The notes under the pieces are model-generated. The model had not been told where the DNA came from and ran no database searches. It saw nothing but the letters and a program-made list of their open reading frames with translations. DNA of 64,000 nucleotides from an uncultured Ruminococcus sp. (lineage in GTDB: Bacteria > Bacillota > Clostridia > Oscillospirales > Ruminococcaceae), in contig NZ_CAMYUE010000003.1 of assembly GCF_947301925.1 (NCBI RefSeq), forward strand, positions 186,001 through 250,000, in the 5' to 3' direction. Each line of letters opens with the position of its first letter. Position 1 is the first letter of the stretch. A program made the translations under genes and the position numbers. Shown here piece after piece: positions 59,302 through 61,036 of the stretch.

Positions 59302-59784
59302 ATGAAAAGGAAAGATTATATAAGCTGGGACGAGTATTTCATGGGCATCGCCATGCTCTCGGCACAGCGCAGCAAGGACAACTCCACACAGGTCGGGGCC
59401 TGCATAGTCAACGACAAGCACAAGATCGTATCTGTGGGCTATAACGGTATGCCTACGGGCTGTGATGATGATGATATGCCCTGGGAGCGTGAGGGCGAGA
59501 CTCCTCTCGATACCAAGTATCCCTTTGTGTGCCATGCGGAGCTGAATGCTATACTCAACAGCAGCTTCGGCAGCCTCAGCGGCTGTACTCTCTATGTTAC
59601 TCTTTTTCCCTGCAACGAGTGCGCAAAGGCCATAATCCAGTCGGGTATAAAGAGAGTGGTTTACAAGTGCAACAAGTATGCCGATACAGACAGCGTAAAG
59701 GCCTCCTGCATACTCTTTGACAAGTGCGGAGTTTCTGTGGAGGAGTACCAGTCCAGCGGCAAGGATATAGTCCTTTCCATGTAA
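59302..59784 (+). CDS. dCMP deaminase
   Basis: Deaminates dCMP to dUMP for dTMP synthesis. The 160-residue protein has the zinc motifs CHAELNAIL (His, Glu) and PCNECAKAI (two Cys), SWDEYFMGIAMLSAQRS and GYNGMPTGCDDD, as in ComEB-like enzymes. No terminator separates it from the radical SAM gene 128 bases downstream. Confidence 0.93.
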   Translation: MKRKDYISWDEYFMGIAMLSAQRSKDNSTQVGACIVNDKHKIVSVGYNGMPTGCDDDDMPWEREGETPLDTKYPFVCHAELNAILNSSFGSLSGCTLYVTLFPCNECAKAIIQSGIKRVVYKCNKYADTDSVKASCILFDKCGVSVEEYQSSGKDIVLSM

Positions 59785-59798
59785 CGGGGGAGAAGACG

Positions 59799-59834
59799 AT
59801 GATGAAGCGAATTAACTGCTCGGTGCAGCTTTGA
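59799..59834 (+). CDS. Possible leader peptide (11 codons)
   Basis: ATG 59799 opens MMKRINCSVQL and stops with TGA at 59832. GGGGGAG (59786-59792) is a good ribosome site seven bases ahead. Its last codons (AAC TGC TCG GTG CAG) lie over the bases that can pair with the Shine-Dalgarno of the radical SAM gene. Translation is not proven; it could be chance. Confidence 0.4.
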   Translation: MMKRINCSVQL

Positions 59835-59912
59835 AGGGAACGACGCACCGAGTAAGAAGGTTCCAGTGCTGCACCCTTTTATAATACCATTAAATATAAA
59901 GGAGCAGTTTTT
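59814..59912 (+). promoter_or_regulatory. Candidate switch RNA before radical SAM gene
   Basis: Fold A: AACTGCTC (59814-59821) pairs with GAGCAGTT (59902-59909), hiding the GGAG ribosome site, and the next bases GGTGCAGC (59822-59829) pair with GCTGCACC (59868-59875). Fold B: CTCGGTGC (59819-59826) pairs with GCACCGAG (59845-59852), and GGAAC in its loop (59837-59841) can pair with GTTCC (59860-59864). A and B exclude each other. Confidence 0.55.
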
Positions 59913-60665
59913 ATGAACGTATATCTTGAAAAACTCGAACGCATAGAATTCATTGTGACTATGTGCTGCACAGGAAAATGCAGGCATTGCAGCGAGGGAG
60001 ACCACTCCGCATATCACGGCCACATAGACGGAGCCGCTGCCGCAGAGGCGGTGACAGAGGTCTGCCGTCATTACAATATAAAGTCCCTCATGACCTTCGG
60101 CGGTGAGCCGCTGCTTTTTCCCGGGACTGTCTGCGCGATACACAGCGCTGCCGCAAAAGCGGGCATAGGCTGCCGCGAGATAATCACCAACGGTTATTTC
60201 ACTAAAGACAAAGCGCGGATAGCTGAGGTGGCTCATATGCTGGCGGAAAGCGGCGTGAACCGCATACTGCTTTCGGTAGACGCCTTCCATCAGGAGACCA
60301 TTCCTGCAGAGCCTGTTGAGCTCTTTGCGGAGAGAGCAAGAGCGGAGGGCCTGCCCATAGAGCTGAGTCCCGCATGGCTGGGAGGCAGAGACGCCGATAA
60401 TCCATATAATGCGGAAACGAGACGGCTTCTGGAGCGCTTTTCGGAAAAAGGCTTCGGTATAGCTGACGGCAATGTTATATTCCCCAAGGGCAATGCACTG
60501 AAGTATCTGAGTGACTACACAGAAAGCTTTGCGGATATCGCGGATCCCTATGAGGAAGATCCGCGCCAGCTGCACTCGCTGTGCTTCAGCGCGGACGGAA
60601 GTGTGCTGAAAGGCAATATATATGACAATGATATCATTGATATAATAAGAGACTACAGGCCGTAA
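59913..60665 (+). CDS. Radical SAM protein, unassigned
   Basis: This 250-residue protein has an N-terminal iron-sulfur motif CTGKCRHC (CxxxCxxC) in FIVTMCCTGKCRHCSEGDH, GGEPLL (AdoMet contact) and LLSVDAFHQE, the half barrel of radical SAM enzymes. There is no clear SPASM domain, only one Cys near the end (LCFSADGSVLKGNIYD). It is unlike Cfr/RlmN and QueE in length and motifs. The substrate is unknown; no precursor peptide was seen next to it other than the 11-codon leader. GGAG lies 9 bases before the ATG but can be sequestered. Confidence 0.82.
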   Translation: MNVYLEKLERIEFIVTMCCTGKCRHCSEGDHSAYHGHIDGAAAAEAVTEVCRHYNIKSLMTFGGEPLLFPGTVCAIHSAAAKAGIGCREIITNGYFTKDKARIAEVAHMLAESGVNRILLSVDAFHQETIPAEPVELFAERARAEGLPIELSPAWLGGRDADNPYNAETRRLLERFSEKGFGIADGNVIFPKGNALKYLSDYTESFADIADPYEEDPRQLHSLCFSADGSVLKGNIYDNDIIDIIRDYRP

Positions 60666-60666
60666 A

Positions 60667-61036
60667 AAAGCCCGTGAGCTTAACCGCTATACTCATATAG
60701 CAATTTTACGGGTGATATTGAGGGAAACCCTTTTGAAAAAGGGTTCCTCTGACGGAGGCGCGTCCCCTCTGTCACTGCGTGACATCTCCCCGCACTGCGG
60801 GGAGTCACCCTCAAACTCCCTTCCTAAAACTTTTAGCATTAAATTTAGCCCGTGCAGGGCGCTTCCCGGTTATTACCGGATTTCACATTTTGTGAAGAGC
60901 GCCCTGCACGGGCTAAATTCAGTTATAAAGTCTTTGGAAAAGGGGTTCGGGGAAAGAACCTTTCCTCAGAAAGGTTTTTCCCCGATAATTACGCATAAAC
61001 TTCTATATAAGCACCACGGTTAAGCTCACGGGCTTT
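60667..61036. repeat. 370-base palindromic element with nested hairpins
   Basis: The ends are perfect 20-base inverted repeats: AAAGCCCGTGAGCTTAACCG (60667-60686) and its complement (61017-61036). Inside are at least six hairpins, among them CTCCCCGC/GCGGGGAG (60786-60804), AACCTTTC/GAAAGGTT (60956-60974), and a perfect 22-base stem (60842-60863 with 60898-60919). No reading frame looks real. It lies exactly between two convergent genes. Confidence 0.7.
60842..60919. repeat. Inner 22-base perfect inverted repeat (cruciform)
   Basis: The two arms pair without mismatch. The 34-base centre forms two small hairpins, CCGGT/ACCGG and TTCACA/TGTGAA, so a three-way-junction or cruciform can form. 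Confidence 0.8.

Follow-up and report, generated by a model that had tools for sequence, protein, structure and literature searches.

A candidate translated leader with mutually exclusive RNA folds in front of radical SAM and methyltransferase genes of Clostridia

The leader locus in the Ruminococcus window

The window, a stretch of 64,000 nucleotides from an uncultured Ruminococcus sp. (contig NZ_CAMYUE010000003.1, positions 186,001 to 250,000), contains a cytidine-deaminase-like gene at 59302-59784, which is followed by a short leader ORF, a folding region and a radical SAM gene. An earlier note on this DNA had pointed to an 11-codon frame with its own ribosome site that ends at 59834, and such a frame is present at 59799-59834, with GGGGGAG at 59786-59792. 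The parts of the locus, with the evidence for each in brackets, are the following:

59786-59792, + strand: ribosome site of the leader, GGGGGAG (sequence)
59799-59834, + strand: leader ORF ATGATGAAGCGAATTAACTGCTCGGTGCAGCTTTGA, MMKRINCSVQL, 11 codons and TGA (frame conserved in 86 of 88 family copies)
59808-59810, + strand: CGA (Arg) codon, the predicted waiting codon in the A site (CGA in 74 of 74 Arg codons, 88 copies)
59814-59821, + strand: AACTGCTC, partner of the ribosome site (H1) in the earlier note (strong pairing in the 18 Ruminococcus-form copies; indistinguishable from permuted pairs in the other 65)
59819-59829, + strand: strand 1, end of the leader, common to H3 (59819-59826) and H2 (59822-59829) (covariation with two alternative partners)
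59837-59841, + strand: 5' strand of H4, GGAAC (7 of 8 H4 model pairs change on both sides)
59845-59852, + strand: strand 2, GCACCGAG, partner of strand 1 in H3 (5 of 9 H3 model pairs with changes on both sides)
59860-59864, + strand: 3' strand of H4, GTTCC (covariation)
59868-59875, + strand: strand 3, GCTGCACC, partner of strand 1 (H2) or of the ribosome site (H6) (both partners change in 9 of 10 H2 model pairs; H6, permutation test)
59876-59901, + strand: A+T-rich stretch, small hairpin possible beside the ribosome site (MFE fold; comparable A+T-rich stretches in other copies)
59901-59909, + strand: strand 4, GGAGCAGTT, ribosome site of the radical SAM gene, which pairs with strand 3 (H6) or with 59814-59821 (H1) (sequence, permutation test)
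59913-60665, + strand: radical SAM gene, 250 aa, CxxxCxxC and GGEPL motifs (Pfam PF04055, E 6e-12; alignment A8, 25 proteins)

All the pairings listed in the earlier note exist in the window sequence where it had placed them. H1 joins AACTGCTC (59814-59821) to GAGCAGTT (59902-59909) and overlaps the GGAG of the ribosome site (59901-59904). The second stem, H2, joins GGTGCAGC (59822-59829) to GCTGCACC (59868-59875), and the rival stem, H3, joins CTCGGTGC (59819-59826) to GCACCGAG (59845-59852), while H4 is formed by GGAAC (59837-59841) and GTTCC (59860-59864). The window sequence alone has a modest folding signal (z -2.09), which 7 of 200 shuffled sequences equal, and comparison between genomes was therefore needed.

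The radical SAM protein has no match at cut-off among 19 NCBIfam matches, and a C-terminal cysteine cluster is absent from the 25 proteins of alignment A8. Behind the gene, at 60670-61033 of the window, nested inverted repeats can be read by eye, in which TTAGCCCGTGCAGGGCGC ... GCGCCCTGCACGGGCTAA lies inside GCCCGTGAGCTTAACC ... GGTTAAGCTCACGGGC.

Distribution of the leader and the genes behind it

A search with the radical SAM protein in 99 genomes gave 24 matches at E <= 0.001, and the gene is found at E below 1e-90 in 13 of 60 genomes of the same genus, its own included. A scan of a species genome collection confirmed 266 radical SAM relatives, of which the best 80 were kept; the 180 nt upstream of these 80, inspected by eye, contain the motif in 24 cases (one cut by the contig end), a different conserved leader in 6 and neither in 50. 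The loci carry two related forms of the switch. The Ruminococcus form has leaders such as MxxKRINCSVQ and the loop pairing GGGAAC/GTTCCC, and the form of Lachnospiraceae and other Clostridia has leaders such as MRKRINNSMQF and the loop pairing CTGACA/TGTCAG.

The alignment was started from 18 Ruminococcus-form and 12 second-form copies, with duplicate contigs, one near-duplicate and copies cut by contig ends excluded. Covariance model R1 was built from the 12 second-form copies and the broader model R2 from 28 copies. R1 also scores all 9 loci of the Ruminococcus form on which it was run, at E 1e-6 to 5e-3, and has matches in 7 of 391 genomes of the class. R2 has matches in 25 of the 392 genomes drawn from one order, in 32 of 194 from a second order, in 5 of 299 from the phylum (own genome included) and in 20 of 60 from the genus. 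The draws overlap partly, and weak matches may be lost in searches of more than 40 genomes. The window genome has one R2 match, and no genome of the genus draw (60 genomes) has more than one. The large alignment holds 88 copies, all matching R2 at E <= 1e-4, although 28 of them are the training set of R2; the copies are related by descent, and their counts are not independent events.

The earlier note had recognised no known class in this sequence, and the database comparison agrees: at gathering score, Rfam 15 finds in the window and 20 loci only tRNA and 5S rRNA, located elsewhere, and leaves the switch unmatched. At relaxed E-values, the window motif has only a chance-level overlap with the sR41 snoRNA (11.9 bits against a cut-off of 54), and the 20 loci have only a chance-level overlap with mir-34 antisense in L140 (27 bits against 53.4). 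Viral contigs gave no match to one degenerate pattern of the switch, and plasmids and phages gave none to one 161-base query (L108). A diverged copy, which was found via its methyltransferase, precedes this gene on a mobilizable Lactiplantibacillus pentosus plasmid (L167:2381-2463), and its leader has no clear ATG, GTG or TTG start in the sequence. Three other loci from the plasmid collection (L166, L168 and L169) have no switch match.

The genes behind 92 copies encode 41 class I methyltransferases of about 250 aa, 34 radical SAM proteins, 13 ABC exporters, one MFS transporter and 3 unassigned products, a count biased by the 30 copies found via the radical SAM gene and the one found via the methyltransferase. 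The 61 copies found by the RNA model alone are followed by 40 methyltransferase, 13 ABC, 4 radical SAM, one MFS and 3 unassigned genes. Among the 34 radical SAM proteins, 29 belong to the window family, 4 are closest to a 316-aa protein and one is closest to a 348-aa protein; the methyltransferase matches include a few fragments (L110, L164). In the genus, 12 of the 20 genomes that carry the motif have it just before the radical SAM gene, and in the other 8 of 8 it is next to a methyltransferase gene, which in L184 and L185 lies behind the Ruminococcus form of the switch. The thirteenth genome with the radical SAM gene (G006) has only a partial motif, at a contig end. The proteins of 10 downstream genes have no listed NCBIfam model at cut-off, where for two ABC proteins, whose genes are incomplete in the sequence examined, the best 25 of 182 and of 184 matches were listed.

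In L110, L162 and L182, the switch stands before methyltransferase genes that look broken, with an early stop or as a fragment. In some genomes, to judge from these sequences, the switch seems to persist after its gene has decayed.

Alternative helices, the leader frame and the ribosome site

H3 pairs the leader end with CACCGAG and H2 pairs it with CTGCACC, while H4 is compatible with either, since it can sit inside H2 or form a pseudoknot with H3. For H3 and H4 together, 95.8% of 1462 cells are paired, and 157 cells carry changes on both sides where shuffles give 34.5, a value that none of 500 shuffles reached; for H2 and H4, the corresponding counts are 217 and 53.7, again with none of 500 shuffles reaching the observed value. 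The shuffles ignore the relatedness of the copies. Slid versions of the helices lower the pairing to 24-48%. The alignment was fitted to H2 and H4, and H3 was outside the model structure used for fitting. The six highest pairs by mutual information, at an effective number of 43 sequences, comprise three of H4, two of H2 and one of H3. Since strand 1 belongs to both H2 and H3, one set of leader letters covaries with two partner strands.

Chance pairing is rejected by the covariation of H2, H3 and H4, which 0 of 500 shuffles equal, and together with the R2 matches in 88 of 88 submitted copies it makes the structure described in the earlier note a real one. Its second stem (9 of 10 model pairs changed on both sides), its rival hairpin, which uses the same left-hand bases, and the loop pairing all covary. 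Of the pairings for which it had proposed a test for compensatory changes, H2, H3 and H4 show such changes, and H1 shows no partner-specific signal in the 65 copies outside the Ruminococcus form. The compared copies argue for mutually exclusive RNA folds, one of which is predicted to hide the ribosome site of the downstream gene.

The leader frame, which reads ..S-V-Q.., is open from its start codon in 86 of the 88 copies; the two remaining frames are open in 4 and 6. A start codon with a loosely defined ribosome-site motif is found in 76 of 88 copies in this frame, against 1 and 0 in the others. A short leader with its own ribosome site is thus conserved across the family, and its translation is predicted. 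The start codon, the ribosome site and the partly conserved peptide K-R-I-N-x-S-V-Q would also fit a small protein with a function of its own, beside which the RNA folds would be incidental. This explanation is very improbable, as compensatory changes occur in two exclusive folds, the peptide varies from 7 to 26 aa among the leaders read, and one position is fixed as the codon CGA and not only as an amino acid.

The conserved frame, with its start codon and ribosome site, also speaks against a riboswitch in which the H3/H4 pseudoknot would bind a metabolite, such as SAM or a product. SAM-II and preQ1-I are H-type pseudoknot riboswitches. The helices of the switch covary strongly and are able to form the same topology, and two kinds of SAM-using enzymes, radical SAM and methyltransferase, lie downstream; in the switch, however, a translated leader forms the 5' strand. 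One loop that connects H4 and H3 measures about 3 nt, and the long 3' loop varies between copies, which leaves little conserved unpaired core except the 5' CGANNTAA stretch. A SAM ligand would not account for the ABC and MFS genes, and no Rfam riboswitch reaches the cut-off. The earlier note had left open whether a stalled ribosome or a bound ligand selects the fold: the comparison strongly supports a translated leader on a bistable RNA, and the ligand branch is disfavoured by the conserved frame, the diversity of the downstream genes and the lack of an Rfam family at cut-off, so that a riboswitch is judged quite unlikely.

Alignment columns 8-10 encode Arg in 74 of the 88 copies, and the codon is CGA in all 74, while the Arg codons at columns 2-4 are AGA in 13 of 15 cases and CGA in 0 of 15. 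Among Arg codons, CGA accounts for 20 of 665 (3.0%) in the window ORFs longer than 250 aa and for 7.8% in mechanically derived reading frames longer than 100 aa from the loci. Of the 79 leaders that have a start and a ribosome site, 61 have the column 8-10 codon as their fourth or fifth. The reading of CGA depends on inosine, and the choice of this codon would be expected of a sensor of the CGA-reading tRNA, in which shortage, damage or under-modification of tRNA-Arg(ICG) stalls the ribosome at CGA and opens the gene. CGA is missing, however, in 14 of 88 copies, and no arginine, tRNA-charging or tRNA-repair gene is found among the downstream proteins scanned. The switch has a single CGA and no codon run, and no arginine pathway gene is found among the downstream groups, which separates it from charged-tRNA attenuators. 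Such a tRNA sensor is considered unlikely.

T13 and A14 of the leader are nearly invariant, with TAA or TAG in 78 of 88 copies (alignment A5 columns 13-15, window 59813-59815). They form a stop codon in the -1 frame, and the neighbouring amino acids of the leader vary. Mutual information, which has little power for invariant columns, gives no RNA partner for T13 and A14. Their near-invariance is counted against the attenuator reading, and so is the absence of CGA from 14 of the 88 copies.

The ribosome site of the gene can pair with strand 3 in helix H6, as in the ABC group, where AACTGTACT pairs with AGTACAGTT. Permutation tests used 83 copies, the 88 minus L130, L159, L161, L163 and L164, in which the gene start is unclear or misplaced. 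In the 65 copies outside the Ruminococcus form, H6 has a mean duplex energy of -8.15 against -6.49 in permuted pairs, with 0 of 200 permutations as low, while H1 has -4.40 against -4.42, with 104 of 200 as low, and so no partner-specific signal. In the 18 Ruminococcus-form copies, the mean energies are -12.1 kcal/mol for H1 and -8.8 for H6, and the constancy of the ribosome-site strand places both helices beyond permutation testing there. In the 83 pooled copies, both helices beat the permutations (0 of 200), where the signal of H1 arises because the Ruminococcus form differs from the rest. L185, which has the Ruminococcus form, carries AACTTCTC against GAGCAGTA, by which, as read by eye, H1 is weakened and H6 is kept. 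The H1 stem of the earlier note therefore is present in the window and covers the ribosome site, but is rejected as the stem of the whole family for want of a permutation signal outside the Ruminococcus form. By sequence comparison, H6 looks like the family-wide stem over the ribosome site and H1 like an addition of Ruminococcus.

The effect of a ribosome on the leader was modelled by holding the 5' part single-stranded up to a moving edge, where column 20 had been written down beforehand as the expected edge. The mean accessibility of the ribosome site in 82 copies is 0.36 when unblocked, rises to 0.59 at column 20 and is down to 0.29 from column 26 onwards, column 29 included; from unblocked to column 20 it rises in 61 copies and falls in 11. 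The rises and falls at column 20 are 17 against 0 in the Ruminococcus form (n=18) and 26 against 4 in the methyltransferase group (n=35), and the effect is weak in the ABC group (7 against 4, n=13) and in the other radical SAM loci (7 against 3, n=11); 5 further copies are counted in the total of 82 only. The peak is gone when the motif is shuffled (0.39-0.44 throughout). When the ribosome-site regions are swapped between loci, most of it stays (0.40 unblocked, 0.52 at column 20, 0.31 at column 29), which means that the H6 of each locus explains the peak only in part. The front edge of a ribosome lies about 15 nt ahead of the P site, and with the edge at column 20, columns 5-7 would therefore lie in the P site and CGA in the A site. 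The model predicts that a ribosome waiting at CGA best frees the ribosome site.

Forced folds slightly favour the H2 state, with -35.0 against -32.3 kcal/mol as means of 83 copies, the pseudoknot H4 not being counted. This closeness in energy counts against the attenuator reading and leaves its resting OFF state a prediction. In the H3 state, the ribosome site is more paired in 31 of 82 copies, less paired in 16 and equal in 35, which is likewise counted against the reading.

Proposed control and relation to known leaders

The favoured reading, with a probability of roughly 0.6, is a leader-peptide translational attenuator that is triggered by slowed decoding. When the leader is translated freely, H3 would form and strand 3 would hide the ribosome site in H6, so that little enzyme would be made; in Ruminococcus, the leader could also hide the site directly by H1. 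When a ribosome waits with CGA in its A site, its front edge would cover the base of H3 and leave H2 free, H2 would capture strand 3, and the ribosome site would open for synthesis of the enzyme. The slowed decoding would most simply come from a translation inhibitor, since the genes behind the switch are of the inducible-protection type (methyltransferase, ABC and MFS exporters, radical SAM enzymes) and related genomes carry one in place of another, but an identical signal would be expected from a damaged CGA-reading tRNA. This suggests an inducible protective response common to the genes under the switch. In some copies, a T-run after strand 3, seen by eye, would allow H2 to be read as a terminator. 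Control of translation is tentatively preferred, because several copies have no T-run and, where present, the T-runs are able to pair with the A-rich stretch that precedes the ribosome site.

In the erm and cat leader-peptide attenuators, the position of the ribosome in the leader decides between RNA folds. The attenuators of the erm, cat and msrD type, such as ErmCL, ErmBL and MsrDL, have a short leader ORF, as the switch has, together with a ribosome whose position picks the fold and a protection-type gene downstream, two features that are predicted for the switch, and the likeness to attenuators of resistance genes drawn in the earlier note holds by analogy, in the sense that the switch may work like them. 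The switch differs from them in that no leader sequence is seen in common, its codon CGA is fixed at the nucleotide level in place of a clear nascent-peptide arrest motif, and its control is predicted at the ribosome site. In MsrDL, according to the part of the paper available, stalling on MYLIFM lets the polymerase pass a terminator (PMC10314930). For the toiL uORF of the E. coli topAI-yjhQ operon, the available part of PMC12121999 describes a response to at least five classes of ribosome-targeting antibiotics and proposes that a stalled ribosome opens a hidden ribosome site. toiL belongs to another organism and gene and has several stall positions, whereas one is predicted in the switch, and the two are likened by description from that part of the source.

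The uORFC-6-1 motif upstream of hflX in Bacillales is presented, in the available part of PMC8632094, as a structured uORF candidate thought to respond to stalled ribosomes; the likeness is again one of description, and the downstream gene and the taxa are others. The smtA motif was rejected as the switch, being a different RNA that the available text of PMC11109978 reports only from Thioalkalivibrio. The available portions of PMC8632094 and PMC11109978 contain no such motif, and the open-access literature searched, as far as its texts were accessible, holds nothing recognised as the motif of the switch. The nearest in kind among known work, by analogy, are toiL and MsrDL.

A different-looking, strongly conserved structured leader stands before the radical SAM family in six loci and before a distant methyltransferase in three. 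It lies on the following stretches:

L062:2836-2990, L064:2832-2990, L065, L071, L089 and L106: second RNA before the radical SAM family
L174-L176, around 1501-1600: second RNA before the distant methyltransferase

Its core is AATTAGTTATTCGCG...CCGCGACGCC...ATGATAAGAACC. It may encode a leader, MIRTLESHHE, and form a stem that covers the ribosome site. R1 does not match L062, the only one of the six given to it, and Rfam offers no match that explains this RNA. A model of it matches 3 of 245 genomes, all of one genus, and the gene behind it there encodes a distant class I methyltransferase, with 24-32% identity across a portion of the protein. The same pair of enzyme kinds is thus accompanied by two different regulators, which supports a common role. 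The radical SAM enzyme and the methyltransferase, which replace each other behind the same switch, are under a strong hint of dealing with the same stress.

A more specific proposal, which is put forward tentatively and is doubtful as yet, is that the fixed CGA, read slowly by inosine wobble, serves as the detector in place of an arrest peptide. The switches would then form a clostridial sensor family for impaired decoding, whether by a drug class or by an attack on tRNA-Arg, that turns on SAM-dependent enzymes and exporters which can stand in for one another. If this were true, the 250-aa radical SAM enzyme and the GTGGGE methyltransferase would be two solutions to the same threat, and the usual picture of antibiotic-sensing leaders, which is built on nascent peptides, would be widened to include detection by a codon.

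If the attenuator reading is right, several uncharacterised enzymes of Clostridia answer to a single sensor, which a mobilizable Lactiplantibacillus plasmid also carries in a diverged form; many of the clostridial contigs come from the rumen or gut. The switch offers a way into the role of these enzymes, because once its inducer is found, their purpose would follow.
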